Positions 26,847 through 46,985 of a stretch of DNA of 47,727 bases are shown here, one piece after another. Made by a program: the position numbers and the translations under genes. Each line of letters begins with the position of its first letter. Positions within the stretch are counted from its first letter, which is position 1. The notes beneath the pieces are model-generated. The model made no database searches and was not told where the DNA came from. It saw nothing but the letters and a program-made list of their open reading frames with translations. Where the stretch lies: positions 1-47,727 of the forward strand of contig JAISEL010000110.1 of assembly GCA_031264185.1 (NCBI GenBank), in the 5' to 3' direction. This DNA is from Deltaproteobacteria bacterium. GTDB taxonomy: Bacteria; Desulfobacterota; Desulfarculia; Adiutricales; Adiutricaceae.

Positions 26847-27613
26847 TACGCTCTTCCTAAACAGGCCGGGACCAGACCCATTTCCGATAAAAGGCCGGGC
26901 TCTAAGCTGTACAGCTCTTCAACTGTCTTAGAGGTAGTCAGCTGTCTGGCCGCACCCCAGGCCGCCACCGAACCGTCTTTCATCATCAGAACCTGACCGC
27001 CCAAATAAACGGCCTGCTCCGGATGGTGGGTGGTCATTAAAAATGACAGCCTGTTTTCTTCGTGGAGTTTTTTCATGCTCTTTAAGACCAGGACCTGATT
27101 GCTGAGATCCAGGCCGCTGGTCGGTTCATCCATCAAAATATACGGGCTGTTCTGGGCTAACGCCCTGGCAATGACCACCAGCTGCTTCTGGCCGCCGGAC
27201 AATTCCAGAAAAGAGCGATCGGCCAGGGACGTTATCTGGCAGAGTTCCAAAGCCTCGTCGGCTTTTTGATTATCCTCGCCGCTGAATCCGCCCCAGCGCC
27301 TGGCGCCGGTCCGCCCCATCAGGACCATTTCCCGTACTGTATAGGGAAAAACACTGCCGTGATGCTGGGGGACGTAAGCCAGAATCTTGGCCAGAGATGT
27401 CCGGCTGTAATTTTCCAGGGGATTTTTGTTTATAAAGACAGTCTTTCGGGCTATGGGCAGAAAACCTAAAATAGCTTTCATGAGGGTTGTTTTGCCGCAG
27501 CCGTTAGGTCCTAAAACGGAAATCATCTGCCCCAGTTCCATACTGAAAGAGACATCGGCCAGAACATCGGCCCCGTGATAATAAGCAAAAGAAAGACTGC
27601 GGATATCGATCAT
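26846..27613 (-). CDS. Iron/metal-complex ABC transporter ATPase (FecE/BtuD type)
   Basis: A 255-residue ATPase of the metallophore/cobalamin uptake family, with Walker A GPNGCGKTT, a Q-loop in AYVPQHHGSVFPYTVREMVLMG, signature LSGGQKQL and Walker B ILMDEPTSGLD. The switch histidine is in MTTHHPEQA. The start overlaps the permease stop by four bases (ATGA). It provides the energy for import across the inner membrane. Confidence 0.94.
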   Translation of the reverse strand: MIDIRSLSFAYYHGADVLADVSFSMELGQMISVLGPNGCGKTTLMKAILGFLPIARKTVFINKNPLENYSRTSLAKILAYVPQHHGSVFPYTVREMVLMGRTGARRWGGFSGEDNQKADEALELCQITSLADRSFLELSGGQKQLVVIARALAQNSPYILMDEPTSGLDLSNQVLVLKSMKKLHEENRLSFLMTTHHPEQAVYLGGQVLMMKDGSVAAWGAARQLTTSKTVEELYSLEPGLLSEMGLVPACLGRA

Positions 27614-29603: not shown

Positions 29604-29616
29604 GAAATCCTCTTAT

Positions 29617-29640
29617 GCCTTCCGGCTTAAGCCGGAAGGC
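29617..29640 (-). promoter_or_regulatory. Intercistronic hairpin between receptor and binding-protein genes
   Basis: A perfect 10-bp stem (GCCTTCCGGC / GCCGGAAGGC) with a TTAA loop sits 17 bp past the receptor stop and 14 bp before the binding-protein start. No T-run follows it on the - strand. It is therefore more likely an mRNA-stabilising or attenuating hairpin that keeps receptor transcript levels above those of the ABC genes. Confidence 0.5.
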
Positions 29641-29657
29641 GTCTGATAAAAAGATGA

Positions 29658-31712
29658 TCAGTAAGTTCCGGTCAGGCCCAGGAAAAAGGTCCGGCCGGCC
29701 TGGGGGTAGTAGTAGTTGTAATAGTAGTTTTTGTCAAAGATATTCTTGGCTCCTATTTCTGCAGAAATATGTTCATTGAAGTCATAGCCGATTTTAAGGT
29801 CAGCGGTGACAAATCCGGGAGCTTCATGGTGATCATCAGAAGGATCAGAACTGATATAAAATGAGGAGCGCAGATTGGCCTGAGCCGTGATGGAGAGTTT
29901 TTCCGTTGGGGCAATGACCGCGTAAAGAGAGCCTTGAACTTTGGGGACATCGGTTACTAGACTGTCCTCCCGAGATGCGGTTTTGGTCTCCCAATCCAGA
30001 AGACTAAGGGTCGCGCCGGCTGCCACATACTTATTGAAGGTCATGTCCACCCCGGTTTCAAAACCCCAGGTCTTAACCTTGTCTATGTTTTTGGCATAAC
30101 GGGCTGCGTTACCTAATATGGAGACCATAACAATCTTGTCGGTCACGTTTGAATAGAAAGCGCTAACAGTAAATTTCAGGAAATTGGCCGCCGTGCCCCG
30201 ATAGCCGATTTCAAAGTGATCGGCTTCCTCGGGCTGGAGATCAAGTGACGCAGCCACATCGGGTGGCAAAAATCTGGTGTTCCTCTGGAATCTTTCCCAC
30301 ATGGACGGGAAACGGCTCTTACGGGCATATGTGAAGAAGATCTGCTGAGTGTTGGGCAGATCGTAAAAAAGGCCCAGCTGCCAATCAAAAAGATCGTTAC
30401 TTTTGCGGTCCTCTTGCCGTAAGGGCACCATAACACCGTTAATCCTATCTTCAACAATGTCCGGCGTCCGCCGACTGTAGGAGAGCCCTAAGACCGTTGT
30501 CAGCCGGTCCATGGGCTTCAGGGTGTACTCTCCGCCCACATCCCAGTAATGCTCCTTAATATGGCGCCCAATAGGTCCGCCGGTATCAGCGTGCTCTTTA
30601 TGGGAAAGTTCCCGGTAACCTAAAGACAGGGAGAACTTGTTGGCCGGATTAATCTCGTAATCGACTTTACCCCTGAGTCCGGCCGTATACTGGTCATAGC
30701 CTGTGTCTCCGTCAATCTGATGGACCGGTTTTTTGCCGATCAGCCGATCGTAGGACTCAATCATATCCTTGTGCTCGTCAAGGTAGCCCAGTAACTGGAC
30801 ATGGGTCTTCTGTCCTATATCGGCGTTGGCGTTGACAAAGTATCTCTGGGTTCGGTATACCGGCCATCTCCACAGGCGGGTGACTGGCGGATTGCCGCCG
30901 AACCCTGAACCCAAATTCAGATTGGCCGGATCGGCTTCGGCGGTCACGGGCATGCCTTTGACAAAGTCCTGCTGAACTGTGCCGACCATAATATCTATGT
31001 CTTCGGTGGGCGTCAGACCGGCAATGACATTTAGGCGCCGGTTACGGAAATCGGAGTTGACACGTCGCCCGCCGCTTTCAAAATATCCGGGATTAAAACT
31101 GTGGGACAGTCTGAAAAAATCCTGCTGATCCTGGGCCGCACTGACCTGGAAATAGAATTTCTCCTGCTTTGTACCGACCCGGACTCCAATGAACTCACCC
31201 ATGTTATCGCCGGTACTGTCAAAATAGTTTTTAAACTGAACTTTAAACTCAAAAGGCCTGACCGGCTTGTGGGTCTTAACATTCAGTATACCTGCCAGAC
31301 CGAAGCCGCCGTTTAGTAAAGTGGTGCTGAAGCCCTTGGAGACCTCAATAGTTTCGGTGTCAAAAACCATAACATCGTTAAAATCAAACTGGTTGCGGTA
31401 AGCCGTAGCCACCGGAATATCGTCAATATACATCCCAACCTGGGTTGTGTTGGAACCGCGGATAGTTATCGCGGTCTCTCCGCGTCCGCCAACACCCATC
31501 TGGGTTACCCCAGGCACCCCGCTTAAAGCCTGCCAGATGTTATTAGCATTTTTCCTCTCTATCTCAACCTGGGTAACTGTGTTAATGGTGTCTTTGGGAG
31601 CGGTCACTTCTACTGCCCCAAGATGAACTTCCTCAAGAATCTGGGCCATGGCCAGAGAACTGCCGGCTATTATAAGGACGGCTGCCAAAATAATTGAAAG
31701 GCACTTAATCAT
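29658..31712 (-). CDS. TonB-dependent outer-membrane receptor of the metal-uptake operon
   Basis: A 684-residue receptor with a signal peptide (about residues 1-23) and a TonB-box-like EEVHLGAVEVTA just after it. The plug domain has ERKNANNIWQALSGVPGV, ITIRGSNTTQVGMYIDDIPV and VSKGFSTTLLNGGFGLAGILNVKT. A 22-strand-type barrel follows, ending in an aromatic C-terminus (GRTFFLGLTGTY). It resembles siderophore or corrinoid receptors of the BtuB/CirA group. It is the first gene of an operon with an ABC importer and tonB, so import across both membranes is encoded together. AGGGTG lies five bases before the ATG. The upstream DNA is a duplicated noncoding segment. Confidence 0.94.
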   Translation of the reverse strand: MIKCLSIILAAVLIIAGSSLAMAQILEEVHLGAVEVTAPKDTINTVTQVEIERKNANNIWQALSGVPGVTQMGVGGRGETAITIRGSNTTQVGMYIDDIPVATAYRNQFDFNDVMVFDTETIEVSKGFSTTLLNGGFGLAGILNVKTHKPVRPFEFKVQFKNYFDSTGDNMGEFIGVRVGTKQEKFYFQVSAAQDQQDFFRLSHSFNPGYFESGGRRVNSDFRNRRLNVIAGLTPTEDIDIMVGTVQQDFVKGMPVTAEADPANLNLGSGFGGNPPVTRLWRWPVYRTQRYFVNANADIGQKTHVQLLGYLDEHKDMIESYDRLIGKKPVHQIDGDTGYDQYTAGLRGKVDYEINPANKFSLSLGYRELSHKEHADTGGPIGRHIKEHYWDVGGEYTLKPMDRLTTVLGLSYSRRTPDIVEDRINGVMVPLRQEDRKSNDLFDWQLGLFYDLPNTQQIFFTYARKSRFPSMWERFQRNTRFLPPDVAASLDLQPEEADHFEIGYRGTAANFLKFTVSAFYSNVTDKIVMVSILGNAARYAKNIDKVKTWGFETGVDMTFNKYVAAGATLSLLDWETKTASREDSLVTDVPKVQGSLYAVIAPTEKLSITAQANLRSSFYISSDPSDDHHEAPGFVTADLKIGYDFNEHISAEIGAKNIFDKNYYYNYYYPQAGRTFFLGLTGTY

Positions 31713-32200
31713 TTTACACCCTAAACGTTATAAATGAACACCCCGAACTGAAACAATCAGTCACTCCCAGACCCTGAGACTGGCTGAACTGAAAGCAAAA
31801 TCAGAAACCATCCCTTGCCAGCTGCCGCAGTCTTTGGTTTACTAACGATGATTAATAGCATTAAATCACCAAATAATACATAACAACATAATTATCATAA
31901 ATTAAAACATCTTTAATTATATTTTAATATATTATTATCTATATAAATTTCCATCTTACTAACATAATTTCCCGTTAAAAATCCCAGCACAGCTCCAAAA
32001 AACTGAAGCCGCTATATAGTATCTGTACCTAAAATTCATCTTCTTATTCCGCCTTCCCGCCCTGATTTAATTACTTAAAGATAAAAATCATTTATTTTGG
32101 CATAGACATTAATTAAAATAATTTATAAAACATTTAAGTTTTTAAGATAAATATTAACCATATATTACTAAAATAACTTTATTAGGGTTAAATTATATGT

Positions 32201-32216
32201 TACGTTAAATAACGTA
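32201..32216. promoter_or_regulatory. Palindrome conserved in both duplicated upstream regions
   Basis: TACGTTA-AA-TAACGTA is a perfect 7-bp-arm palindrome. The matching site in the other copy (40935-40950) is TACGTT-AAAA-AACGTA, still fully palindromic at six pairs. A similar GTACGTTAAAGTTATG lies near 2850. It is a candidate operator, although it is about 490 bp from the receptor start. Confidence 0.4.
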
Positions 32217-33029
32217 CACCATGGCCGTCTTCCGTTACGTCTTAAAATAGGTCAACATATTTCCTTGAGTAAACCGTGGTGATTCTACAAAAAATGATTT
32301 TTCACCTTTAAAACATATCCGTACAGCCACCAAATAGTCTAAGATCCAAAATTCACGTAACTATCCGAACAAACCTGACTGTTCTCTTTATAATTAGAAT
32401 GGCCAGAGAAATGAACTTTCATCCTCTTTTAAAATAACCAAAAGAAATCAAACTTAATTTAAATTTATTTTAAATTCATGTTGACCACTATAACGATGAT
32501 TATTTACCCTGTCAAGAAAAAAAATGGACTCCATAAAGCTGAAGATGCCTTAATTTAGAGGTCGGAAAAATTCTATCCACAATTCAAAAATGACTCAGCG
32601 GCCATATTTTCGGGGACTTAAAATTATTTACTTTACTATTTGTACCTTATGGTCATTTTTAATTTTACAAGCACCAGCAGAAAATAAATAATTTTACTTT
32701 TTTACTAATATTAATATATGTATTAACTATTAATGAGATGTTAATATGGAAAAAATCATACTGGATAAAAATTTCCGTCACCCCGGAGACTAAAAAAATT
32801 TTTGGCCGGTCAATTAAAAATGGCGTTTTAGCTTAAAAATAAGAATTTGGGGAGAATATCCGGCGGACAGTCAATTCATTTGACTTTTGACTAAGGCCAG
32901 AGGTGCGAACAGGTTGAATCAGGTCTCAAATTCAGCTTCAAGATTTACCAGGATTTACTTTATTAAGCGGACTGACAATAAATCTCCGTTTCGGTAAAAA
33001 ATTAATGGATTTTTATGCTACAGCCATCA

Positions 33030-33200
33030 TCAGAAATTATGGTCGCGGGACTGAGTGAGTTCGCGCACAGCTAGGCCCCTGCTCTTGGAGTCGGCCAGCT
33101 GGGCCACGGCCAGACCCAAAGAAGAGCCGGCAATATCGGTTCCGCCGTCATCAGTCAGGTATTTTCCGGACAGGGAGATGGCGGCTTGGCAATGAAGCCG
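33030..33200 (-). pseudogene. Fragment of htpX
   Basis: The frame reads AAISLSGKYLTDDGGTDIAG followed by SSLGLAVAQLADSKSRGL. This matches the third quarter of the intact HtpX encoded at 41871-42722 (AAISRSREYLADDGGADIAG and so on). The glutamate that binds zinc in the intact protein (REYLAD) is a lysine here, two codons are deleted, and both the N-terminal two-thirds and the C-terminus are missing. It came with the segmental duplication and cannot encode a protease. Confidence 0.82.
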
Positions 33201-33315
33201 CCAAAGTTGCCAGTTAAGCTCAGCCACTCCGAAATCCAAGGACGGCATTCTCAGGAAGGGGCTTTTTCCGGGCTTCCTTGTTTTCGCTGCATAAAAATCA
33301 AAATAAAACTGAACA

Positions 33316-33339
33316 GGCCCGGCCGCCATAGGCCGGGCC
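33316..33339 (-). terminator. Terminator of the Pmp-like gene
   Basis: A perfect 9-bp GC stem (GGCCCGGCC / GGCCGGGCC) with a six-base loop lies 45 bp beyond the stop. On the - strand it is followed by TGTTCAGTTTTATTTTG. Confidence 0.65.
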
Positions 33340-33383
33340 GGAAGATTAAGTAATATTTCTGAGCCGTTGATCCAGACATGGTT

Positions 33384-35501
33384 TCAGATGGCAGGGCCTG
33401 GACTGAAAGTCAGCTCGCCTTTGTTATTCCATTCAAGAAGATAATTCCGGTCAGCGCCGCCAGCAGTCAAATTTCCGGTATAATTTCGGCCGACCAAACT
33501 CTTGAAGTCAATTTTTCCGCTTAACTTCAAAATGACATGTTTATCAGGGAAAACCGATCCTTCAGCCATCGCCACCTTGATTTCTTTTGGCAGATCAAGA
33601 CCGGCCGCCTCCAAAACATGTGGTTTTTCTGCGGCCGGTTCCAGGATTAAACTGGTTTCCCCGGCAAATGACATTTTTTCAGCAGCTTTTATCACAGCGC
33701 CCTGGCCCTGCTTGTCGGCCAAAAATTTTAAGGCGCCTTTTTGAATATTCCAGGCAGCCAGACTGGTTTCAGTCAGGCTTAAAATACCGGAACCGTCCTT
33801 GGTGATTCTGGCTTTTTCGCCGTAAACCGGATCGCTAAGAGTCAGTTCAGCTCCTTGGCCGACGTTGACGATCAGATCGTCCGGTTCAGGCCGTGGCGGT
33901 CTCCCGCCAGTCTCGGCCTGCGGCTTTTTCTCTTTAGGATCTGGCGAGGCCAGAAAAATACCGCTGGGTTTAGCCAATTCTGAGGTCGTTCCGGCTTTGT
34001 TGCCAGACACGGCCATGATCTTTCCATCGCTGACGCCGAAGACCAGTTTCCCTCCAGCTGCCACGTAGAGTGCGCCGCCGGAGGCTTCCTTCCCTATGGC
34101 CTGATTGCCGGTTAAAGAGGTGTCAACCAAAGTCAGCTGAGCTTTTGGTCCAACAAAGACTGCTCCCCCTTGGGCAGTAAGGCCAACTGCCTGGTTGTTC
34201 AGCAAAGACGAGTCAGCGACGGTCAGCTGGCCATTTAAATAGATAGCACCGCCGAAACCGGCTACAGGCCCTTTATATTTTTCGCCCAATTCTTTGGTCC
34301 CGCCTTGAGCTGAGTTGGCTTCAAAAACGCTGCTCTTTATTACGCTCTGAGTTCCGCCGATTTCCAGAGCTCCGCCTAAAGATCCGCCAGGAGAGGTCCC
34401 GGAATTGTTTTTGAAAGTTGAATTTTCAATCACCAGCCCGCTGCCGGAGAAGATGGCCGCTCCCCTGGCCCGGCCTCGCCCCAGGGAGCTTTCGGTCGCC
34501 GCAGTTTCCAGCCGGTTGCCGTTGAAAAGGCAGTCCCTGAAAATGGTTTTACCATTTATGGCCATAAGGGTGACTGCCCCGCCCCTTGCATCCACGAAGT
34601 TGCTGGCGGTCACTTGGGATAAAGCGGCATTGCTGTCAAAAACAACCTTAGTAAAAACCGCCGTCGGGGGCTGGTCCCCGGACAATGTCTGGAAGGGATT
34701 TCCGACAACCGCCACCGCGCCGCCTTCAGCTCCGCCTCCGCTCGTTGGGCCGGCCACGGCTTTGTTGTTGGTGAAGGTGACCCCAGTCAACGCCGAGCCG
34801 TCAAATTGAGCGTCAATATTACCGATTACAGCCACCGCTCCGCCCAGAGACGACGTGGCTTGTCCAATGGCCTCAACCTTGTTATCGCTGAAGGTGGAGC
34901 CAGAGACGGAAAAAATCATCAGTTTGGAGGGCACAAAGACCGGCTCGGCCACGCCCTGATTGTAGACACTTAAGGCTCCGCCTCTGGCGCCGGCGGAGGG
35001 ACTGTGCCCGGCAGTAGAGGTGGTTTGGCCGGTGCTGTCAACCTTGGCTTCGTTGCCGGAAAACTCCAGCTTGGTCAGGTTAATCTGTCCCAGCTGAACG
35101 AGGCCTAATCCTCCTCCGTGGGCAAAACCACCGTTTCGGGCCGATGCCAGATTGCCGGTTATTCGGCCGTCGCTGACTGTCAGTGACGTATAGTTCGACA
35201 GAAAGCTGCCTCCGCCGGAAGCTCCGAGATTCACTGCTTCAGACGATTCAAGTACGGCCTTGTTTCGTGTCAGGCTTACGGCGGTCAATTCGGCCAGGCC
35301 AGCGCCTGTCCCCTTTAAGCCGCCCCCTTCAGCGGAGTTCCCCGCAGGGCCTAAAACTGCAGTGACCGTTTGACCATCAAAGACCGGCTTATCCAAACGC
35401 AAATTGTCGCTTTCCTCAGCCCCAGCCACTGCGGCCAGAAAAATCAGCAGCGCAGACACAGCAATTAAGATTAGAAATTTTTCACCAAACTTGAGTCGCA
35501 T
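33384..35501 (-). CDS. Secreted Pmp-like beta-helix repeat protein without an autotransporter barrel
   Basis: A 705-residue protein with a signal peptide (residues about 1-28, ending AVAGAEE). It has at least nine repeats pairing FxxN (FSGNEA, FSDNKV, FTNNKA, FNGNRL, FKNNSG, FEANSA, LTGNQA) with GGA(I/L/V) (GGALSVYN, GGAVAVIG, GGAIYLNG, GGALYVAA). This pairing is known from chlamydial polymorphic membrane proteins and other right-handed beta-helix passengers. The last 130 residues look like the C-terminal cap of a passenger (NYLLEWNNKGELTF). No beta-barrel, sortase or lipid anchor follows, and a terminator lies just downstream, so the protein would be periplasmic or exported by another route. 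GGGAGG precedes the ATG. It sits between two TonB receptor genes. Confidence 0.82.
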   Translation of the reverse strand: MRLKFGEKFLILIAVSALLIFLAAVAGAEESDNLRLDKPVFDGQTVTAVLGPAGNSAEGGGLKGTGAGLAELTAVSLTRNKAVLESSEAVNLGASGGGSFLSNYTSLTVSDGRITGNLASARNGGFAHGGGLGLVQLGQINLTKLEFSGNEAKVDSTGQTTSTAGHSPSAGARGGALSVYNQGVAEPVFVPSKLMIFSVSGSTFSDNKVEAIGQATSSLGGAVAVIGNIDAQFDGSALTGVTFTNNKAVAGPTSGGGAEGGAVAVVGNPFQTLSGDQPPTAVFTKVVFDSNAALSQVTASNFVDARGGAVTLMAINGKTIFRDCLFNGNRLETAATESSLGRGRARGAAIFSGSGLVIENSTFKNNSGTSPGGSLGGALEIGGTQSVIKSSVFEANSAQGGTKELGEKYKGPVAGFGGAIYLNGQLTVADSSLLNNQAVGLTAQGGAVFVGPKAQLTLVDTSLTGNQAIGKEASGGALYVAAGGKLVFGVSDGKIMAVSGNKAGTTSELAKPSGIFLASPDPKEKKPQAETGGRPPRPEPDDLIVNVGQGAELTLSDPVYGEKARITKDGSGILSLTETSLAAWNIQKGALKFLADKQGQGAVIKAAEKMSFAGETSLILEPAAEKPHVLEAAGLDLPKEIKVAMAEGSVFPDKHVILKLSGKIDFKSLVGRNYTGNLTAGGADRNYLLEWNNKGELTFSPGPAI

Positions 35502-35691
35502 TGGTCAACCTCCCGTCACGACCTTTACAGCTGCAGACGCTGTAATCAAAACAACCAAAAATAGAAGGTAACATTGTTTTCACTAAAATAAATGTACATA
35601 GACTAACTAAAATAAATTATATACATATTACGATTAACTAGTGCGTTTACGATTTTAATCCTGATTCTCAGCAGTATAAAAAACACTTATG

Positions 35692-35727
35692 CTGAAAAAA
35701 TAGGCGGGAGCCTGTGAAAGGCTCCCG
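35692..35727 (-). terminator. Rho-independent terminator of the second receptor gene
   Basis: An 8-bp stem (CGGGAGCC / GGCTCCCG) with a seven-base loop is followed on the - strand by CCTATTTTTTC. It starts 14 bp after the receptor stop and isolates the receptor from the Pmp-like gene. Confidence 0.85.
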
Positions 35728-35740
35728 TTTCGCGTTAAGT

Positions 35741-37813
35741 TCAGTAGATATAGGACATGCCCATAAAATAATTACGGCCAGGTTGGGTATCTCTTCCATA
35801 GGCTGCAGTGCTGCCAGAATACCCGTAATTGACATCGCCTATATTCTCAACCCCGGCCTGAACAGAGATGTTTTCCGTTATATCATAGGTAGTTTTGAGA
35901 TCGACTCTGACGAAACTAGGCAGTAATTTTTCATGATCAAGATTATAGCGGGCGCCTACCACCTGGATGCTGGGGATGATCCGCCACTGCTTAACGGGGC
36001 TTATAATCATAAAGGCGTTGGTCATATACTTGGGCTTATCTACAACCATGTTGGAAGTAGCGGCATCGGTTGTCTTGCGATGCGTTTTAAGGTAGGAAAA
36101 ATTGCTGCCTAAAGTCACATACTGACTCAGTTCAGTCTGAAACGCAAATTCGAAGCCCAGAAAATTCGCCTCTCCTATATTGGCGTAGTTGAAACTATCA
36201 GGGTCAGTTTGGTCGTAGTCAGGGTTAGCGCCAATAATGTCCTTTACTTGGCTGTAGAAGACATTGGCGCTTATTTCCGCCAAGCCGCCTATATTGCCTT
36301 TGTAACCAAATTCAAAATGATTGGCGACTTCAGGTTTCATCTCCGCCGCCATTCTGGAAACACCACCAACTAACCTTATTGCATCATACATTTGCATATA
36401 AGTAGGCAAATTGGTCTTGCGGGAAAAGGTAAAATGCACCTGATGCTCTGGGGTCAAATTGTAAAAAGCACCGAATTGCCAATTAAACGCGTCATGTTCA
36501 GGTTTGTTTCTGGCTGAATACCTAGGGGAGGTCGGCTGGCCCGCAGCATTGACATCCTGGCGGGTATAAGACTCTCCTTTTTTGGTGATATAGCTTAGGC
36601 CAAAAACCATGGTCAAGGGATCAATTGGTTTTACTGTGTATTCCGCCCCAAAGTCATAGCTATGTCCCTTCATATCCTGAGTTTTAATATCGCCGTCTGG
36701 CGTTAGACGTTCATGAGTGTCGGCCCGGTAATTAGCGGCCACAGCCAATTTATGCCGTTCGTTAAACGTGTAGCCGTATTCCAAATGGGTCCCCCAGCCT
36801 GAGTCGTCAAACTTCGAGGAGAAATTCATCAGAAGGGTGCCTGCGGCGTCCCAAGCCCATAAGGTGTCTCTGTGCTCATCATAGTAAACTGTTCCTTTGA
36901 AATAGGACTTTTCATTGAGCGTTATATTGGCAGAAAGATAAATCCGCTCGGTGTCCCAATCAGGCCAATAATACCTTCGTGCGTCAGCGTTACCCGGAGC
37001 CGCCCAAGATTGATGTGAATTTTTTTCGCCTTCGTGCCGAAAATACCCAAGCATAATGTCCACGTCTTCAGTTGGCGTCCAGCCCGCCATCATATTGAGC
37101 TGCCAGTCTTTAGTGTCTGACCTCCCGCGCCGACCGCCTTTTCTGTCGCCCGGAGCTGGCATAGCTTTAGCAGAAGGGGTGAAGAAATCCTGATGCTTAA
37201 TGTGAAATGATGATTTCAAATAAAATTTGTCTTGTCTGCTGCCTACCGAAGCGCCGAACTCCCGCCCCATATCGTCGACGGACCGGTCAAACTGATTCTT
37301 ATACACCGCCATGAACTCAAGCGGCTTTTCAGGCTTGGCCGTACGGATGTCAATAACTGCGCCCATGTTATTGGCGCCGCCGAGGAGCGGGGAACTGTAC
37401 CCCTTGGATACCTCAATTGAACTGACATCGAATATGGATATTCTGGCGAAATCGAACTCACGGCCCCAGCCGTTGGCCAGAGGAATCCCGTCAAGAAACA
37501 TGCCGATTCGCCCTTGATCAAAGCCGCGAATATTAATATAGGACGATCCCCGGAAACCAGCACCGTTGCCGTTCAACATGATGCCAGGTTCCATTCGCAA
37601 GGCTTCATACAGAGAGTCGGCGTTCTTCCGCTCTAAAACTTCCTGGGTGATTATGCTCATGGTGTTTTGGGTTTCGATCAGTTCAGCTGGACCTAGCTGG
37701 ATAATGGAGCTGGAATCGGCTGTCGCCGTATCCGTATTTCCGCTTTGTGCCCAGGCAATGGTTGGCGCTGCCATCAGTAACAGCACCGCAAAGACTAACG
37801 AGTTACGTTTCAT
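35741..37813 (-). CDS. TonB-dependent outer-membrane receptor, second
   Basis: A receptor of about 690 residues with a signal peptide (MKRNSLVFAVLLLMAAPTIAWA). A TonB-box-like region follows (IIQLGPAELIETQ), then a plug with ERKNADSLYEALRMEPGI, INIRGFDQGRIGMFLDGIPL and VSKGYSSPLLGGANNMGAVIDIRT, and a barrel ending in GRNYFMGMSYIY. It is a paralogue of the receptor at 29658-31712 (same plug motifs). It stands alone between its own terminator and a very AT-rich upstream region. The ATG at 37813 has GGAGG six bases upstream; an ATG one codon earlier is possible, while the longer frame to 37861 is not supported. Substrate unknown. Confidence 0.93.
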   Translation of the reverse strand: MKRNSLVFAVLLLMAAPTIAWAQSGNTDTATADSSSIIQLGPAELIETQNTMSIITQEVLERKNADSLYEALRMEPGIMLNGNGAGFRGSSYINIRGFDQGRIGMFLDGIPLANGWGREFDFARISIFDVSSIEVSKGYSSPLLGGANNMGAVIDIRTAKPEKPLEFMAVYKNQFDRSVDDMGREFGASVGSRQDKFYLKSSFHIKHQDFFTPSAKAMPAPGDRKGGRRGRSDTKDWQLNMMAGWTPTEDVDIMLGYFRHEGEKNSHQSWAAPGNADARRYYWPDWDTERIYLSANITLNEKSYFKGTVYYDEHRDTLWAWDAAGTLLMNFSSKFDDSGWGTHLEYGYTFNERHKLAVAANYRADTHERLTPDGDIKTQDMKGHSYDFGAEYTVKPIDPLTMVFGLSYITKKGESYTRQDVNAAGQPTSPRYSARNKPEHDAFNWQFGAFYNLTPEHQVHFTFSRKTNLPTYMQMYDAIRLVGGVSRMAAEMKPEVANHFEFGYKGNIGGLAEISANVFYSQVKDIIGANPDYDQTDPDSFNYANIGEANFLGFEFAFQTELSQYVTLGSNFSYLKTHRKTTDAATSNMVVDKPKYMTNAFMIISPVKQWRIIPSIQVVGARYNLDHEKLLPSFVRVDLKTTYDITENISVQAGVENIGDVNYGYSGSTAAYGRDTQPGRNYFMGMSYIY

Positions 37814-37949
37814 CATGTTCCTCCAAGTTGCAAAAAAAGAGGCAACGCGTGTTTCTGACACTCGAAAGAGGCCATTACCAAGTGTGCCTCATTGTTTAAA
37901 TTAATCAATAAAGACTGTTTGATACTTCAAACTGCCCGCGTCTCATTGA

Positions 37950-37969
37950 TTATGATACTAATATCATAA
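37950..37969. promoter_or_regulatory. Candidate operator upstream of the second receptor gene
   Basis: TTATGATA-CTAA-TATCATAA is a perfect inverted repeat with 8-bp arms, about 137 bp upstream of the receptor start. It resembles metal-regulator sites in composition (TGATA...TATCA) but is one base short of the Fur 7-1-7 consensus. Confidence 0.45.
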
Positions 37970-38345
37970 AATTTAATTTATAAATTAAAATTATTATATA
38001 AATAATTATTTATATAATTATATTAAGACATAAAAATTAAACTACAGACTGTTATTTTATTTAATCACTGAAAAAACAGTAATAATAAATAAATAAAGAA
38101 TTTATTTATCATACTTATATGTTAATAAATGTTTACTTATGCTATTAAAACAAATTAATAATAATATAATAATTATTATATATTTATCAATTAATATTAA
38201 TTAATATAATTAATTTTTATAATTTTAATTTCTTAATTTCATTAAAATATAATAGTTAATATATCGTAAATAAAATGTTTTTTAAATAGTTATTGTAATA
38301 TATATAAACTATATATTATATATTATAATATATAATTGACTTTTG
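37970..38345. other. Extremely AT-rich intergenic DNA
   Basis: Nearly 400 bp consist almost only of A and T, with runs such as TTAATATTAATTAATATAATT and TATATATTATATATTATAA. No gene can be encoded. It may hold promoter or H-NS-like silencer-type DNA for the receptor; comparably AT-rich blocks lie at 2960-3360, 31860-32190 and 40620-40930. Confidence 0.5.
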
Positions 38346-38638
38346 TGAAGTAAACTATTCATCAACCAGCCGGTCCGGAGTCTGACTGGCCTAAAGAAAG
38401 CTGCCTGAGTTCTGATCTTTTTGAAGAATGTGGTTTTATCAGCCAAGATGAGGCCAAATCGGACCCTGAAGAGGCAGTGACTTCTGATAACTGTTGAGGC
38501 CGGTTTTGAACGAACATTATTTTTAAATGAACGAAAAATAAACCGTGACCCGGACGCTGATTGTCCTGTCTGTTTTCTTGAAGAGACGAGAAGAGAAAAA
38601 AAGAGGTAGTTTTGTAGAGTATTATTAGTAAATAAGTA

Positions 38639-38660
38639 AGAGAGAGAGAGAGAGAGAGAG
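38639..38660. repeat. (AG)11 dinucleotide microsatellite
   Basis: Eleven uninterrupted AG units, preceded by AAGAGACGAGAAGAG-type purine-rich sequence. On the - strand it falls in a 136-codon frame (38362-38772), where it encodes SLSLSLS within a hydrophobic stretch. That frame has no clear ribosome-binding site or recognisable family, so the repeat may equally be intergenic. Confidence 0.85.
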
Positions 38661-38779
38661 CAATAATCGTGCCAATTACAAGTTGGTCAAAAATCAGGAA
38701 ATTCTTTTTTAAGCAGCTCTTTTTATTCATATGTCCATGACCATCCTGAAGTCTTATTTTGGGCATGCCCAAAAATAAT

Positions 38780-39152
38780 GCGACTGTGTTAAATTAATTC
38801 CCAAGCTGGCTGCTAACTTGCCATTGATTCAGGTCATCTCTGAACTTCCCGCGAAAACACTCCTGTGTTTATAACCTTGGGCAATTAAGACGAACTATTG
38901 CAAGAAAGGACAAATTTTATTTAAAACCGGTAAATTAATGCAGCAACCTGATAAAGACCGCAATGAAACTAAAATAACCCGTTGATAACAGCTCATTCAG
39001 CCAGACTCCAAGTTTCTTGGGCATTAAAGCCTGCAGTACCGCTAAAATCCAGGCTTTCAGCATGGTCAAACCAGAATGAGGCCTGACTCAGACATCAGTT
39101 AGCCGTGAATACCGTTCTAATCTCTGTCTCTCAGATATAATAATCAGAACTG
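38780..39152. other. Intergenic region downstream of the second tonB, no gene
   Basis: About 370 bp of mixed composition with no supported frame and no clear T-tailed hairpin after the - strand tonB gene. Confidence 0.4.
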
Positions 39153-40232
39153 TCATCTGAGACCGAAGACCAATGGAATGGCAATGTTGGCCGATGCCGG
39201 CGGCGGCGGAAAAGGCGCGGCCCGCTGCACCGCGCTTAAGGCCGCTTGATCTAAAAGTTGGTTGCCGCTGGAACGGTTGATCCTGACCTGAGCAACTTGC
39301 CCGTTGCCACCTATGGTGAAAGCTACTGTGGCCGTGCCGGTTATACCCTGTTTCTTGGCTTCTTCGGGGTAAACCATTTTCCGCCTGATGAGACGAATGA
39401 TGTATTTATAGTTGGCGTCTATGTAGCTCTTGAGCAAACCTGCCTGGGAACCGCCGCCCCCGCCACCTTCACCCCCGCCGCCTTCGCCCCCGGGCTTTGC
39501 GTCATTTGCTCCCAAGCCCTGACCGGAACCTTTGCCGGACTGGGCACGGCCAGAGCCTTGGGTTTCCGACCGCCAGGACACAGCATTAGATACGACTGTC
39601 TCTTTAGCTGGAATTTTAGTTCTTACTTCCTTCCGGGGTCGCTCTTTAGGTTTGGGTTCCTTCTGTTTTTTGGGTTCGGGCGGTGTCTGATTCAGAGAAA
39701 TGGCCTCCAGGTCTGGCTTGGTGGTCGGAGTCTCAAGCGGTTGAGGTTCCGGCGCCTCAGGCGCGGCTGACTCCAAGTCCAACTGCTCCGATATGTCCGG
39801 CTCTAAGTCCAGCGGTTCGGCTGGCTCAATATCGGCAATTTCTTGCTCAGCGGAGGCCCCCGCCCCGGCAGCCTGACCATCCCCGCCCTCCTGATCGCCG
39901 GGCAGGGCTCCGTAGAGTCCCACCTGCATCACACCGCCCAATGGCCCTGGCGCTCCTGGCATGTCCAGGGCAAAAGTCCCGAACATCAAAATTGCTGTGG
40001 CAACTATCAGATGCAAAAACGTCGACAGCCCGAACAAACATACCCATGTGGTCCTTGATCTGTCCCTGACGGACAATTCAGACACTTCCCAGGAGAGATC
40101 CAGACTCGAAGGTTCCATGTTCATGCCAGAACCCCAGCCAGATTCAAATTCCATAAATTGAGGTTGGATTGGTAATGGAACATTGTCATAAATGTATTGA
40201 TTCTCCAGGTCAATCCAAGAGATTAGCCCCAA
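39153..40232 (-). CDS. tonB: TonB protein, second
   Basis: A TonB of up to 359 residues. It has a membrane helix at about residues 62-88, an acidic Pro-rich spacer (PLDLEPDISEQLDLE), a basic Lys/Pro stretch (EPKKQKEPKPKERPRKE) and a Gly-rich linker. The C-terminal TonB domain has YPEEAKKQGITGTATVAF and the ending APFPPPPASANIAIPLVFGLR. The C-terminal 90 residues closely resemble those of the other TonB, so the two are paralogues. The start is uncertain: the longest frame begins at a TTG (40232) without a ribosome-binding site, and ATGs at codons 27, 37 and 39 would give a more usual short cytoplasmic tail. It stands alone and probably serves the second receptor. Confidence 0.88.
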   Translation of the reverse strand: MGLISWIDLENQYIYDNVPLPIQPQFMEFESGWGSGMNMEPSSLDLSWEVSELSVRDRSRTTWVCLFGLSTFLHLIVATAILMFGTFALDMPGAPGPLGGVMQVGLYGALPGDQEGGDGQAAGAGASAEQEIADIEPAEPLDLEPDISEQLDLESAAPEAPEPQPLETPTTKPDLEAISLNQTPPEPKKQKEPKPKERPRKEVRTKIPAKETVVSNAVSWRSETQGSGRAQSGKGSGQGLGANDAKPGGEGGGGEGGGGGGSQAGLLKSYIDANYKYIIRLIRRKMVYPEEAKKQGITGTATVAFTIGGNGQVAQVRINRSSGNQLLDQAALSAVQRAAPFPPPPASANIAIPLVFGLR

Positions 40233-40515
40233 AACCAGAGCCGCTAACTAAACTGCGGTATAATTGATTCAGGCCCGCAAAACGCGGGACCGAGAGCCGG
40301 CCCCCATGAGCCGTTAGACCAGCTGGGTGAAATGCGCTTCATTAAAGCCCACGCATTTGAACACCTGAGGCGGCTGCTGTAAAAAACCGGCGGACGGCCG
40401 CCCAGCACAAGAGCCAGAAGCGGAGATCTGGTCTAAATACGTAAGACGGACGACTGGCTGGCCCAGACTGCTTCTCCCACCTAAGGCTAGGTTTTGTGTT
40501 ATGGGTCAAAAGGAG

Positions 40516-42137
40516 AAAATCAGTCTCTCCCATATCCTGAGACTGGCTTAACTTAAAGCAAAATCAGAGGACCGCCTCCGACCAACCGCCGCAGTCTTTG
40601 GCGCATTAATGATGATCAATAGCATTAAATTATTAATTAAATAGTTAAATAGTTAAATATATAATTTTAATAAATCATTAATACAGAATTAAGCGTATAA
40701 TATTAACCTTATTATTGTAATTGACTGCTAAAAATCTCAACACAGCTCCATAAAAATGAGGCCCCTGAAGTATCTGTACCAAAAATTAATTTTCTTATTC
40801 AGCCTGTCCGCCCCAAATTCAATTGCTTAAAGAGCAGAATAGTTTAGTTTTATTTAGCCACTAATTAATCTGTTATTTAAATTAATTATATATATTTATA
40901 CTGATAAAATTATTATTTAAGCTTAATTATATGCTACGTTAAAAAACGTACACCATGGTCTTCTTTTCTCACTTCTTGAAATAAGTCAGCACGTCTTATT
41001 CAAGTGACAGTGGGTGATTTCAGGTGAAATAATTTTTCACCTTTGAAGCATACCCATATTCGAACAAACAGCAATCACTCTAAGATCCCAGATTTACGTA
41101 ACTATCCGAACAATCCTGACTTTTCACTTTATAATTAGATTGGCCAGAGAAATGAATTTTCTTTTCCATTTAAGATGACCAAAATAAACAAAACTAAATC
41201 GCAATTTCTTTTAAATTCATGTTGACAACTATATAGGCGTTTATTTATTCTGTCAAGAAAAAAAAGGCTCCATAAACCTGAAGATGCCTTAATTTAGATG
41301 TCATAAAAATTCTATCAACAATTCAAAAATGACTCTGCGGCCATTTTTTAGTGTCCTTAAAATTATTTTCATTATTAATTGTATCTCCTAGTCATTTTTA
41401 ATTTCACAAGCATCATCAAACAATGAAGAATTTTATATTTTTGCTAATATTTCATAAATTAACAGTGTTAATATTATGTATTAAAAACAGATGCCCCAGA
41501 AATTTATGAAAAATTAAACGCAGTAAAAAATTCCGTCACCCAGCAGACTGATAAAAACTTTTAGCCGGTAAATTAAAAAAGACGTTTCTATCCAAAATAG
41601 TAATTTTGGGCGAAATACGGTGGACGATCGGCTCATTTGGGTTTTTGACTAAGATCAAAGGCGGGAACCGGCTGGATCAGGTCTTAAGTTAAGTTTTAAG
41701 CTTAACCCGGACTCATACTTTATCGGGCTGGCAATAAATCCTAAATTTTGGGGAAAATAAAGATCTTTTCCGGCTGCATGAACGGACATCCGGAAAAAAG
41801 GCTTAAAGACCGGTTTTAATTAGCTTACCGAAAGATCAAACCAGCGGTCTAAATTTCCGGCCCTGAGGCCTTACGGCTGAAGTCCCCGCAGACGGTTGAT
41901 GCGCTCTTCAATGGGCGGATGGGTGGCGAACAGCTGGCTGATGCCTTTAAAAATCAAAGGATTGACAATAAAAAGACCGGCGGTCGCTGGACTGGGATCA
42001 CGCAAGGTCAGGCCCCTGCTCTGGGAGTTGGCCAGTTTTTCCAGGGCCGAAGCCAGCCCCAAAGAAGAGCCGGCAATATCGGCTCCGCCGTCATCGGCCA
42101 GATACTCTCTGGACCGGGAGATGGCGGCCTGGATTAA
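40516..42137 (+). repeat. Segmental duplication, copy B (noncoding DNA plus intact htpX end)
   Basis: The counterpart of 31755-33200. It runs from the upstream region of the second tonB into the 3' part of htpX. Because htpX is complete here and only a fragment in copy A, this is the likely source copy. The noncoding part (about 40516-41860) contains no supported gene. It holds the TACGTT-N4-AACGTA palindrome at 40935-40950 and an 8-bp-arm hairpin AGGTGAAA-N5-TTTCACCT at 41022-41042; the left arm of the latter is lost in copy A. Confidence 0.82.
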
Positions 42138-42722
42138 AGAAGCAGCCAAAGGAGCCAGTAAGGCCATTAAAAGACCGGCCGCCGGTGAACCTCCCCGGTT
42201 GTCCTGACTGCCGGAACGGACAAAAAAAGCCGAAAATCTGGCCATCTGAGCCAGGAGCATGATCACTCCGGCCAAAACAGCGGCCACCGAACCGATTAAG
42301 ATATCCCGGTGTTTGACGTGGGCCAGTTCATGGCCCAAAACTCCGGCCAGTTCTTCCCGATTTAAGATGCTGAGGATGCCGGTGGTCACGGCCACCACAG
42401 CGTGGGAGGGATTGCGGCCGGTGGCAAAGGCATTGGGGGCGGGATCGTTCATTATAGCCACACGGGGCATAGGCAGATCGGCCCTCTGAGCCAGATGGGC
42501 AACCAGCTGGTAAAGCTCGGGCGCCTCCAGCTCTGTTACCACTTTGGCCCTGGTTTGGGCCAGAACAATACTGGCCGAAAACCAGTACATGCTGAAATTC
42601 AAAACCATAGCCAGCCCAAAAGCGATCCACAGGCCCTGATGTCCGCCCATAGCCTCGCCTAAGAGCATAATGACCAGAGTCATAGCTGTCAGCAAAAATA
42701 TAGTCTTAATTTGATTTGCCAA
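41871..42722 (-). CDS. htpX: HtpX-type membrane zinc metalloprotease
   Basis: A 283-residue M48B protease with two N-terminal membrane helices (LLTAMTLVIMLLGEAMGG and IAFGLAMVLNFSMYWF). It has the zinc site HELAHVKHRD and its third ligand in SREYLADDGGADIAG, then two further hydrophobic helices, and the ending FATHPPIEERINRLRGL. HtpX degrades misfolded membrane proteins together with FtsH. I set the start at TTG 42722: GGGGGGAG lies just upstream and the resulting N-terminus (ANQIKTIFLLTAM) matches the family. The frame upstream to 42737 would translate the ribosome-binding site itself. Part of this gene is duplicated as a fragment at 33030-33200. Confidence 0.94.
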   Translation of the reverse strand: MANQIKTIFLLTAMTLVIMLLGEAMGGHQGLWIAFGLAMVLNFSMYWFSASIVLAQTRAKVVTELEAPELYQLVAHLAQRADLPMPRVAIMNDPAPNAFATGRNPSHAVVAVTTGILSILNREELAGVLGHELAHVKHRDILIGSVAAVLAGVIMLLAQMARFSAFFVRSGSQDNRGGSPAAGLLMALLAPLAASLIQAAISRSREYLADDGGADIAGSSLGLASALEKLANSQSRGLTLRDPSPATAGLFIVNPLIFKGISQLFATHPPIEERINRLRGLQP

Positions 42723-42777
42723 ATTAACTCCCCCCAAAAGCCAGAAGCTCCCAAGGAAACAGACCCAAAAAATAAGG

Positions 42778-43449
42778 TCAGCAGTAGCTTTTTATCATCG
42801 CCAGCACCGAACGGAAGTTTTCTTTAACCGCATCGGCCCCTATTATGGCCGGACCATGGCCTGGCAGAACTATTTTGACCGGCTCTACGGAGGCCAGCAT
42901 TTCAACGCTTTTATAGAGTTCCGAAATACTGCCGCCCGGAAAATCGACCCGCCCGAAACTGTGGGCAAAGACAATGTCGCCGGTCACAAGCAAGCCTTCC
43001 TCAGGCCAGTGGAAACAGATGCCCCCCGGACTGTGCCCGGGAGTGGGATAGACGTTTAGGCCCTTGTCCCCCAAATCCAGCTTTCCCGGTTCAATTATCC
43101 GTCCGATGTAGCCGGTCGGCAGGTCCAGTCCCATCCAAGGAAAAAAATCCTGACCAGGTCCTTCATAGAACTCTTTTTCTTCCTGGCTCATGGCCTGAGT
43201 TGCCCCGTACTCTTCTTCCAGGATCTGCCCGGCTTCCATATGATCAGGATGGCAGTGGGTAAATAAGACCAGCTTAAAGTCTTCCGGATTCAAGCCGTCA
43301 TCGGCCATTTTGGTCTTCAAACCGGGCCAGAGGTGCTTGTGGCCGGGATCGATTAAAACCGGAACAGCCCCGGTCAGAGCCACAGTATTGCAGTTATTTT
43401 CCAGAGTTCCGGAAAAAGGATAAAAATATATATCTTCTGACAGTTTCAT
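42778..43449 (-). CDS. Metallo-beta-lactamase-fold hydrolase
   Basis: A 223-residue cytoplasmic MBL-fold protein. It has the metal motif THCHPDHMEAG (HxHxDH), a second histidine in TPGHSPGG, an aspartate in VTGDIVFA and the last histidine in VLPGHGPAI. Glyoxalase II-like members hydrolyse thioesters or related bonds, but the substrate cannot be told. The ATG at 43449 has CGAGG at good spacing, so I discard six extra codons of the longer frame. It lies 55 bp upstream of htpX on the same strand and may be co-transcribed with it. Confidence 0.9.
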   Translation of the reverse strand: MKLSEDIYFYPFSGTLENNCNTVALTGAVPVLIDPGHKHLWPGLKTKMADDGLNPEDFKLVLFTHCHPDHMEAGQILEEEYGATQAMSQEEKEFYEGPGQDFFPWMGLDLPTGYIGRIIEPGKLDLGDKGLNVYPTPGHSPGGICFHWPEEGLLVTGDIVFAHSFGRVDFPGGSISELYKSVEMLASVEPVKIVLPGHGPAIIGADAVKENFRSVLAMIKSYC

Positions 43450-43946
43450 AAAAAGCCTCGGAAACATGACTGCCTGAAAACATGACCTGAACGTTAAGAA
43501 AGCTGTCGGTCTATGGGCCTGTCAGGCGGCAAGTTATCAGAAATATATAAGAAAACGGCGATAATTACAAACAGTTATCCGGCTTAACCTGAACAGTTGG
43601 ACCTTCAAATAACTGCCAGTTAGCCGGATAGCCGGGTAAAAGCGCTGAAGAAGACTTAAAAGCTTGTCAGAAGTTACATGGTAAAAGCCCGGATCGAAAG
43701 AGAATCTTGAATATTCCAGCCAAAAACTATTGCTCTGTGATCCGGAAAAACAACCAAAACCCATGCCCCCGCGCCCCTGAAACCCTCGTCAGGGCAGTAG
43801 CAGTGTGTTATGATTTGAACCAGAAACTTTAAGCCCAGAAAGAGCAGACATCACCCTTAAGCGGGGTTCCCAAAACACGAATCAATGGTGTTCAATATCT
43901 ATTAACAGCTATATTTATATTAAATATTTCCTTTAACAAAATAAAT
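43450..43946. other. Intergenic region between divergent genes
   Basis: About 500 bp between the MBL hydrolase and the AT-rich secreted-protein gene. A 75-codon - strand frame at 43537-43764 has no recognisable content. The last 70 bp are AT-rich and probably hold the promoter of the + strand gene. Confidence 0.4.
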
Positions 43947-44895: not shown

Positions 44896-45747
44896 ATGTT
44901 TCCAGGAGCCAAAGTGTCCCTCTATAACTCCGATCCCCCGACCTTGGCCGAAATATTGCTGCGGCATTTAAAAACAGCCGACTTAAGGGACATAAATCCT
45001 TTTGTCCGGGGTTACGGCAATGAGCTTATCTCCCGTCTGGCTCCTTATTATCCCGACCTTGACCGCTTAAATTCCGTTGGCCTCAGGTTCAGTGATAACG
45101 GCTGGTTTTCAGCCGACACTCTTTATCAGACAGCTCACCTAAGCGAAAAATTCGGACCCGGCCAGTGTTTTCTCCAGGTTCAGGGTTATCAGGCCTTTCT
45201 GCCTGCTTTAAATCCGGACCAAGATGAAGAACTTTGGAACAGTCTGCCTCAGGTCGGTCCCAGACGCTTAAACCTCCAACAAAAAGGCGGTATCTCCCTC
45301 TGCCCTCTGTGGGGCCCGTGTTTGGGCCAGAGAGTCACTTACAGTGAACTGTTAGGGGAACTGGCTGAGGAGCTTAATAAAGAGCTGGACAGTTATTTCC
45401 GAGCCGAACTCATTGGCTGCCCCAAGGACTGCCGCCTGGCTATGGAAAGAACCGATGTTGGCCTCATTCTGGCTCAGGACGGCCAGGGCCTGACAGTTTT
45501 TTTGGGCGGCCGCCACCGTTTCGGGCACGATCCTGTTGTCCCGGAACCGATCAAATTTTTTGAACTGAGTGAAGCTTGGCCTATGCTGGATTTTGTCTTT
45601 ATGATTCATGACCAGTGGTATGAACTGAGACTCCCGGAAGACGAAACCCTGCCGGAGACGGTCAGCCGCCTTGGCTTGGATGTTATTTTAAAGACCAAAA
45701 ACCCCCGGGCCAATAATATTGGCCACATTAAGCCCCTAAACCGCTAA
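44896..45747 (+). CDS. Divergent DsrA-like sirohaem/[4Fe-4S] protein without ferredoxin domain
   Basis: A 283-residue cytoplasmic protein with the layout of the DsrA subunit of dissimilatory sulfite reductase. A nitrite/sulfite-reductase half-domain (residues about 60-120: VGLRFSDNGWFSADTLYQTAH) is followed by the coupled sirohaem/[4Fe-4S] cysteines Cys136-x5-Cys142 (LCPLWGPC) and Cys175-x3-Cys179 (IGCPKDC), then LAMERTDVGLI, matching the SDxxVIG segment. DsrA is normally about 435 residues with an inserted ferredoxin domain; that domain is missing. The N-terminus is also shorter. It is followed after 17 bp by a DsrB-like gene. The assignment is by motif spacing and order. It may be an altered enzyme, a sirohaem carrier or a decaying relic. 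Confidence 0.68.
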   Translation: MFPGAKVSLYNSDPPTLAEILLRHLKTADLRDINPFVRGYGNELISRLAPYYPDLDRLNSVGLRFSDNGWFSADTLYQTAHLSEKFGPGQCFLQVQGYQAFLPALNPDQDEELWNSLPQVGPRRLNLQQKGGISLCPLWGPCLGQRVTYSELLGELAEELNKELDSYFRAELIGCPKDCRLAMERTDVGLILAQDGQGLTVFLGGRHRFGHDPVVPEPIKFFELSEAWPMLDFVFMIHDQWYELRLPEDETLPETVSRLGLDVILKTKNPRANNIGHIKPLNR

Positions 45748-45764
45748 CTGATCCAGCAAACTTT

Positions 45765-46985
45765 ATGACTTCTGAAGATAAATCCCCGCCTCTGCCGCCG
45801 AACGAACTTCTTGAGGTGGATTTAAGCCCTGAGGAACTGATTCGAGCTCAGATCCCCAACGAGCTGACCAATTTAAGTTCCGACGCCACTCATCCTTTAA
45901 CCGAGGCTCCGGCTCCGGCCGGAGCCTCGGTCGAATCCGAACCTGTTCTGGAACCCATCCTGGCTGCCCAACCGGCCGTACCTGCGGAAAATGCCGACCG
46001 GTTAGGAGCCCCTATATTTTTCCAGCGTCTGGCCTTAGCCGAAAACCCCGGCCAAATAAAAATCAAAAGGCAGTCCCCTCAAAGCTACAGTTTGGCAGCC
46101 AACGACAACTGGCCGGTTTTTTTACTTCGCCGCCAGTGGACAGGACCTATCCCGGCTCAGGCTCTGAAAACCGCCGCCGCCGCCGCCAAACGTTACGGCG
46201 ACAATCGTCTGTGTTTAGGTCCCCACAATGAACTGGATATGTTCTTTAATGACCGCAGGTCATTGGATCTGGCCCTTCAGGAAACAGCCGAGCTGCCGGA
46301 GACCAAATTACTGCCCTTCAGACTCCTGGCCTGCCCCGGACTTTATTTCTGTCCCCTGGCTGCCAAAGACACACTGACTGCGGCTGAAACAATAAAAACC
46401 ATAGGTTCCCAAAAAGTCTGGCCAAAAACCGGCCGAAGAGACCCTCTGATTATTTCTCTGGCCGGTTGTCCGGCCGGCCAGGGGAGGGACTGCGGCCTTT
46501 ACGAATATGCCGATCTGACTGTGGAAGGTAACCGAACTGGCTTGCCGGTCATTAATCAAGCTCTGGCCGCCCAATCGCCCAATCTGGCCAGACTGATCGC
46601 CGGCTGTCCGACCGGGGCTCTGTCCGGGTCAACCCATCAGGAGGAATGTCTAAAAATAAATCCTCTCCTCTGTCGTCGCTGCGGCTTTTGTGTGCATGAA
46701 AACCTAAGTTTTACCTGGCCAAGTCCTCAGGGCAGTTATTTCCGGCTTCTTTTAGCCGGGAGGCGCCATGGTCATCAGCCGGTATATCTGCCACATAAAA
46801 TCATCTGGAGCAGACTGGGGAATAATTTCAGCCTCTCGATCTTAAAAATCTTCTCCTTACTGGAACTTTGGCTGACGGAATCCTCTCCTCAGGAACTTTT
46901 GGCCAATTTTCTGGAACGGACCGACCGTCTGGACTATCTGGCCGAGGCTCCGGAACCTGAACAGCCCGGCAGTCTTAGCAATTAA
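45765..46985 (+). CDS. Divergent DsrB-like sirohaem/Fe-S protein
   Basis: A 406-residue protein. Residues 1-80 are a Pro/Glu/Ala-rich tail not seen in DsrB. A nitrite/sulfite reductase half-domain follows (residues 115-175: WPVFLLRRQWTGPIPAQALK, then YGDNRLCLGPHNELDMFF). The sirohaem-side cysteines are Cys190-x5-Cys196 (ACPGLYFC) and Cys235 and Cys243 (AGCPAGQGRDCG), where DsrB has a tighter CCxxxC. A DsrB-type ferredoxin site is complete: Cys281 in AGCPTGAL plus Cys303, Cys306 and Cys309 (CRRCGFC). The C-terminus (LANFLERTDRLDYL) parallels the ERLGEWAERIG end of DsrB. It almost certainly forms a complex with the DsrA-like product of the preceding gene. Function unknown. Confidence 0.7.
   Translation: MTSEDKSPPLPPNELLEVDLSPEELIRAQIPNELTNLSSDATHPLTEAPAPAGASVESEPVLEPILAAQPAVPAENADRLGAPIFFQRLALAENPGQIKIKRQSPQSYSLAANDNWPVFLLRRQWTGPIPAQALKTAAAAAKRYGDNRLCLGPHNELDMFFNDRRSLDLALQETAELPETKLLPFRLLACPGLYFCPLAAKDTLTAAETIKTIGSQKVWPKTGRRDPLIISLAGCPAGQGRDCGLYEYADLTVEGNRTGLPVINQALAAQSPNLARLIAGCPTGALSGSTHQEECLKINPLLCRRCGFCVHENLSFTWPSPQGSYFRLLLAGRRHGHQPVYLPHKIIWSRLGNNFSLSILKIFSLLELWLTESSPQELLANFLERTDRLDYLAEAPEPEQPGSLSN

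Follow-up and report, generated by a model that had tools for sequence, protein, structure and literature searches.

A divergent DsrA/DsrB-derived gene pair with conserved iron-sulfur cysteines in a bacterial family without canonical dsrA

Introduction

DsrAB is a widely used functional marker for sulfite and sulfate respiration. In MjFsr, sulfite is bound by four positively charged residues, Arg355, Arg423, Lys460, and Lys462, that sulfite reductases have in common; the site in DsrA is structural and inactive, and DsrB has the motif CXnCCX3C at its catalytic cluster (PMC10229431). Fsr has a sulfite-reductase fold with an inserted ferredoxin domain and is fused to an F420H2 oxidase (PMC10229431). 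The Dsr-LP described in methanogens are small Dsr-related proteins with a coupled-cluster motif, which keep three or all four of the sulfite-binding residues and in group I lack ferredoxin domains (PMC3448663).

Two adjacent genes, here called gene 1 and gene 2, were analyzed in a 47,727-nucleotide stretch of DNA, the whole of which is referred to as the window. The pair resembles DsrAB (PDB 3MMC, 2V4J, 3OR1, and 2XSJ) in its A-B gene order, DsrA-like and DsrB-like predicted folds, core-cluster cysteines, B-chain ferredoxin insert, and hydrolase-gene neighborhood. It differs from DsrAB in its low identity (about 15–19%) and scores (22–33 bits vs. cut-offs of 342–393), in an A chain without the ferredoxin insert, in the loss of most sulfite-binding residues, in the B-chain spacing (C-x5-C...C-x7-C vs. 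CXnCCX3C), and in having neither dsrN nor dsrMK adjacent and no dsrK in the genome. Like the Dsr-LP, the proteins are small and carry coupled-cluster cysteines, and gene 1 is comparable to group I in lacking a ferredoxin domain, but the pair consists of separate A and B chains in bacteria and keeps one sulfite-binding residue on gene 1 and one on gene 2, where Dsr-LP keep at least three of the four. Gene 2 shares the ferredoxin-containing fold (model Z 17.8) and C-x5-C with Fsr, which differs in its oxidase fusion, its four sulfite-binding residues, and its C-x3-C. A single-chain AsrC/alSir-like reductase of the same genome belongs to the same sirohaem/4Fe-4S sulfite-reductase family, but it is a separate gene in a distinct clade with its Arg and Lys-Lys residues intact.

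The gene pair and its locus

Gene 1 (44896..45747, plus strand) encodes a DsrA-derived subunit of 283 aa with a core cluster formed by C136-x5-C142 and C175-x3-C179, an invariant R180, and a GGR(H) motif, and it has neither the inserted ferredoxin domain nor a ferredoxin motif. Gene 2 (45765..46985, plus strand), which follows after 17 bp, encodes a DsrB-derived subunit of 406 aa with a ferredoxin domain, and its motifs are C190-x5-C196, C235-x7-C243, C281P, C303-x2-C306-x2-C309, and GRR. Residues 1–80 of gene 2 (45765..46004, plus strand) form an acidic, Pro/Ala-rich N-terminal tail that is predicted to be mostly disordered and contains a conserved linear motif, the elements of which are LELDLSxEE, DSTHxLTEAPxPxGA, and LEP. 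The initial annotation had described two adjacent genes in A-B order at these positions, the first of 283 residues with C-x5-C and C-x3-C and no ferredoxin domain, and the second with a CP plus CxxCxxC ferredoxin site, a C-x7-C spacing, and an acidic Pro-rich tail, and all of these features are seen in the sequence. In genus g7, gene 1 (L051, L052, L054, and L056) extends at its C-terminus into repetitive acidic tails rich in Ala, Glu, and Pro, several hundred to about 1000 residues long, and a low-complexity insert separates the two halves of gene 2.

Upstream of the pair lie a divergent metallo-beta-lactamase (MBL)-fold hydrolase (42778..43467, minus strand) and an HtpX-like M48 protease (41871..42737, minus strand), the latter a conserved neighbor of the hydrolase in this family; both serve as synteny anchors and are not claimed as parts of a complex. 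No dsrN, dsrM, or dsrK was found in the window. The statement of the initial annotation that no dsrC, dsrD, dsrN, or dsrMKJOP is nearby stands for these three genes, and also for dsrC in the vicinity of the pair, but a dsrC is present elsewhere in the same genome. A search against Rfam matched nothing, either in the window or at the loci with the gap 3' of gene 2. By ORF reading, the window also contains a TonB/ABC-type metal or siderophore uptake region (26000–40300) with two TonB-dependent receptors, two TonB-like proteins, and an autotransporter-like repeat protein.

Ancestry of the two chains

Single-sequence searches gave scores far below family thresholds. The Pfam NIR_SIR score was 21 bits against a cut-off of 27, and the NCBIfam models dsrA (for gene 1) and dsrB (for gene 2) gave 22.6 and 33.4 bits, where the equivalog cut-offs are 392.85 and 341.5 (TIGR02064/TIGR02066); other members of the pair scored weakly too. 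The best PDB sequence matches were DsrA for gene 1 (E 0.05) and DsrB for gene 2 (E 9e-5). In hhalign comparisons of alignments, gene 1 matched DsrA with 98.7% probability (E 4.7e-16) and DsrB with 74.6% (E 2.6e-5), and gene 2 matched DsrB with 98.9% (E 3.6e-17) and DsrA with 97.7% (E 1.3e-12).

The AlphaFold2 models (mean pLDDT 78.5 for gene 1 and 75.9 for gene 2) both have the nitrite/sulfite reductase superfamily fold, with DsrA as the top Foldseek match of gene 1 (E 1.9e-7) and DsrB as that of gene 2 (E 5.3e-18). VIA-align superposed gene 2 on DsrB 2V4J with Z 20.0 (rmsd 5.6, 312 aligned), and for gene 1 it left SiRHP and the Dsr chains tied at Z 12–13, for example SiRHP 4HTR with Z 13.3 (rmsd 2.6, 129 aligned) and DsrA 3OR1 with Z 12.1 (rmsd 7.0, 252 aligned). 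The initial annotation had read the genes as a DsrA/DsrB-like pair of half-domains far from DsrAB, a reading that would fall if the nitrite/sulfite reductase fold were missing; the profile comparison and Foldseek agree on DsrA as the best match of gene 1 and on DsrB as that of gene 2, and the low bit scores confirm the distance.

In the tree, the split (94/86) separates a group of gene 1 and DsrA from one that holds gene 2, DsrB, and the single-chain reductase. The stems are 1.9 and 1.7 changes per site long, so that long branches meet and the split cannot be dated; the tree is compatible with a fast-evolving DsrAB descendant or with an old sister lineage and does not separate the two. Gene 1 is of DsrA ancestry and gene 2 of DsrB ancestry, and the similarity is not due to chance, as can be seen from the profile-profile comparison, the Foldseek matches, and a pattern that is invariant in relatives. 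The chains are separate and DsrA-like and DsrB-like in profile and fold, as in DsrAB, but both score below the equivalog cut-offs, only gene 2 has the ferredoxin domain that DsrAB has in both chains, and of the four Arg/Lys residues the A chain keeps the fourth. By these defining tests the pair is not DsrAB, although it is most likely descended from it.

Other identities were considered and rejected. The AsrC/aSir-type protein is a different gene in a separate clade of the tree, and precorrin-3B synthase CobG gave weak matches in just 4/16 members. Gene 1 also has IspG matches (VIA-align Z about 9, residues 128–247), which are attributed to a shared 4Fe-4S domain and not to an IspG function.

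Cluster cysteines and sulfite-binding residues

Across six to seven genera, the four cysteines of gene 1 (17 sequences) and the eight of gene 2 (16 sequences) never vary, at a mean column identity of 48% for gene 1 and 39% for gene 2. The A chain fits the canonical coupled-cluster motif CX5C..CX3C, and the B chain does not fit CXnCCX3C. Its spacing is C-x5-C plus C-x7-C in 15/16 sequences, with C-x6-C in the remaining one, and C243 aligns by hhalign with the fourth cluster cysteine of DsrB, with four extra residues between C235 and C243.

The sulfite-binding residues have fared differently from the cysteines. The 12 reference DsrA sequences have all four without exception. When mapped by hhalign and by spacing from the cluster cysteines, with the first position in a weak hhalign region, positions 1–3 are lost from gene 1 (Arg/Lys in 0/17, 1/17, and 0/17), the fourth is Arg or Lys in 14/17, and gene 2 has an invariant Arg (R122) at the first position and lacks the second to fourth. 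Because R122 is kept, gene 2 might still bind an anion. Judged from the sequences, the iron-sulfur wiring appears kept and the grip on sulfite mostly lost, and it is mainly for this reason that a changed role is proposed. The initial annotation had also argued for a changed role, a view strengthened by the absence of DsrK and by gene 1 having kept just one of the four sulfite-binding residues.

Distribution and selection

Among the genomes searched, further copies of the pair come from one bacterial family only, which is represented by MAGs, and their order and neighbors are unchanged. This family is probably the termite-gut Adiutricaceae, an assignment helped by a report of Desulfobacterota of the family Adiutricaceae from termite guts, in which the Adiutricaceae MAGs encode no dissimilatory sulfate reduction pathway (PMC9137090). 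Other sampled families of the phylum gave no pair, the gene 1 profile matching only true DsrA and other sulfite reductases there, and a scan of about 85,000 species with one genome each found none outside the family. A contig scan with a single gene 2 sequence found no relatives, and relatives were found when the alignment was used. Gene 2 was matched in 21/37 genomes of the family. Of these matches, 18 were assigned to the pair itself, and the three weakest (G002, G021, and G036), which lie at the position of the single-chain reductase, were left out. Gene 2 is absent from 7/7 genomes of genus g6, several of which are >90% complete.

The ORFs are intact in nearly all carriers, and pairwise dN/dS (NG86), taken only from pairs unsaturated at synonymous sites, is about 0.16–0.37 for both genes. 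The pair is under purifying selection. The invariant cysteines and these dN/dS values indicate working proteins and not relics, and a pseudogene is rejected by the selection test, in line with the initial annotation, which had held that this is not a dead gene; frameshifted, relaxed copies in close relatives, which would have told against it, amount to just one duplicate and one contig-edge copy. The duplicate is a frameshifted second copy of gene 2 (G017:C92, L047), and the other is a contig-edge copy with in-frame stops (G025:C106, L059), each an apparent decay in a single genome.

Chromosomal neighborhood

The gene order in carriers is HtpX and the MBL-fold hydrolase, then, divergently, gene 1 and gene 2, followed by a gap and an aspartate aminotransferase, beyond which ClpP, ClpX, and Lon are found where the contig is long enough. 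The gap between gene 2 and the aminotransferase (L041, L042, L044, L045, and L048) spans 0.8–1.7 kb and contains no clear long ORF and no Rfam match. Genus g6, which lacks the pair, retains both the hydrolase and HtpX.

The same hydrolase occurs beside true dsrA. Its orthologue, by best match, lies 2.6–4.6 kb from dsrA and divergent to it in 10/21 dsrA-bearing relatives, including 3/3 dsrA-bearing genomes of the same order (G037, G039, and G040) and the complete genome G042. In the unlinked relatives, the hydrolase is on a different contig (ten genomes) or 3 Mb away (the complete genome G049). The relatives are not independent of one another, so the count of linked genomes is not converted into a probability. 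With the hydrolase orthologue near dsrA in these ten relatives, the simplest reading puts the pair at the ancestral dsrAB locus, where it was most likely remodeled in place. In the hydrolase tree, all copies from this family group together, apart from the dsr-linked ones, and a family-specific second copy is present, which weakens strict orthology.

Sulfur-metabolism genes of the family

Neither canonical dsrA nor aprA was found above cut-off in any of the 37 genomes of the family, and DsrK was found in none of the 28 tested, the source genome included. AprA-like matches stay below the aprA cut-off in every genome of the family. DsrC, in contrast to DsrK, is present, with matches above cut-off in 36/37 genomes; in the source genome it lies at G000:C44:4642-4938 (L124; others L125–L130 and L135). 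Both C-terminal cysteines of DsrC are kept in 7/8 genomes read, including G018 and G029, which lack the pair, and in G009 a Ser replaces the first. The source genome also encodes sirohydrochlorin/sirohaem-pathway enzymes (cysG_Nterm, 69.7 bits; cobA, 294 bits). On whether true dsrAB and sirohaem synthesis coexist with the pair, a check suggested at the outset, the outcome is that canonical dsrA is missing and sirohaem-pathway genes are present.

The single-chain AsrC/alSir-like sulfite reductase of the source genome lies at G000:C6 beside a ThiF-like gene, and in it the second, third, and fourth sulfite-binding residues, which are the positions read, are intact (Arg, Lys-Lys). In G010:C107 and G013:C15, the single-chain reductase is a few kilobases from a divergent AprA-like gene, an arrangement that suggests an assimilatory route.

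Proposed function and alternatives

The pair is best explained, with a probability of about 0.62, as a DsrAB-derived heterodimer that was remodeled in place at the ancestral dsr locus, in a family without the tested sulfate-respiration genes, and whose role has changed. The two half-domains would pair as in DsrAB. The entry point for electrons would be the ferredoxin cluster of gene 2 (C281/C303/C306/C309), from which they would reach the core [4Fe-4S] cluster of the same chain (C190/C196/C235/C243), and gene 1 would supply a second core cluster (C136/C142/C175/C179). A sirohaem-type tetrapyrrole at the interface, probably coupled to one or both core clusters, is likely since the genome encodes sirohydrochlorin/sirohaem synthesis enzymes. 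Given a pocket without most of its sulfite residues and the presence of a separate single-chain reductase, sulfite reduction by the complex has most likely ceased; it more likely reduces some other small substrate at low potential, or acts as a redox relay or sensor. A non-sulfite role is thus the most likely from the residues kept and lost. Reduction of another substrate is the foremost candidate, if short of an even chance, followed by electron transfer or redox sensing as a possible but less probable role; a sulfite/nitrite reductase with a rebuilt pocket is unlikely, and any other role is very unlikely.

The strongest competing explanation, which is itself unlikely but has to be weighed, is a catalytically dead structural, regulatory, or redox-sensing protein, in which clusters serve stability or sensing and disordered tails bind partners. 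The variable acidic tails and low-complexity inserts, with up to about 1000 residues in one genus, would suit such a protein, as would the linear motif conserved in the disordered tail of gene 2 and the loss of most sulfite-binding residues, but an invariant full electron path through ferredoxin and core clusters exceeds the needs of a scaffold.

An ancient Dsr-like lineage comparable to the methanogen Dsr-LP, gained or retained on its own and with no tie to the lost dsrAB locus, is improbable. It is in keeping with the very long tree stems and with the aSir/DsrA-type C-x5-C of gene 2, which does not occur in DsrB with its CXnCCX3C (PMC10229431). Against it, however, the two separate chains match DsrA and DsrB, respectively, the pair adjoins the hydrolase that flanks dsrAB in relatives, and it is confined to one bacterial family among the genomes searched.

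About as improbable is a working sulfite or nitrite reductase, used for assimilation or detoxification, whose rebuilt anion pocket would consist of R122 (gene 2), R/K169 (gene 1), and further conserved arginines (R180, R206, R257, R333, and R334). All cluster cysteines are kept, R122 is invariant, sirohaem-pathway genes are present, and DsrC is kept, all of which would fit this function, but gene 1 has lost three of the four binding residues and gene 2 the second to fourth, residues of this kind are intact in a separate single-chain sulfite reductase, and the pair is dispensable in one genus (0/7 genomes). A decaying dsrAB relic heading for loss, to which the loss of canonical dsrA, aprA, and dsrK from the family, the absence of the pair from one genus, and the two broken copies might point, is scarcely credible given cysteines invariant over six to seven genera, dN/dS of 0.16–0.37, and intact genes in nearly all carriers.

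Implications

For the DsrAB-derived heterodimer with a changed role, a fuller history can be offered tentatively, with somewhat less than even odds: after giving up sulfate respiration, the lineage may have turned DsrAB in place into a sirohaem/Fe-S heterodimer with new chemistry, which would either reduce another substrate or sense redox state, and kept DsrC without DsrMK. The pair raises the question of the job of DsrC in organisms without DsrAB or DsrK, and the carriers and non-carriers within one bacterial family provide a tractable test set. If the reading is true, a respiratory metalloenzyme would have gained a new role after the loss of its own pathway, through an apparent rebuild at its own locus in which the iron-sulfur wiring was retained and the substrate residues were dropped.
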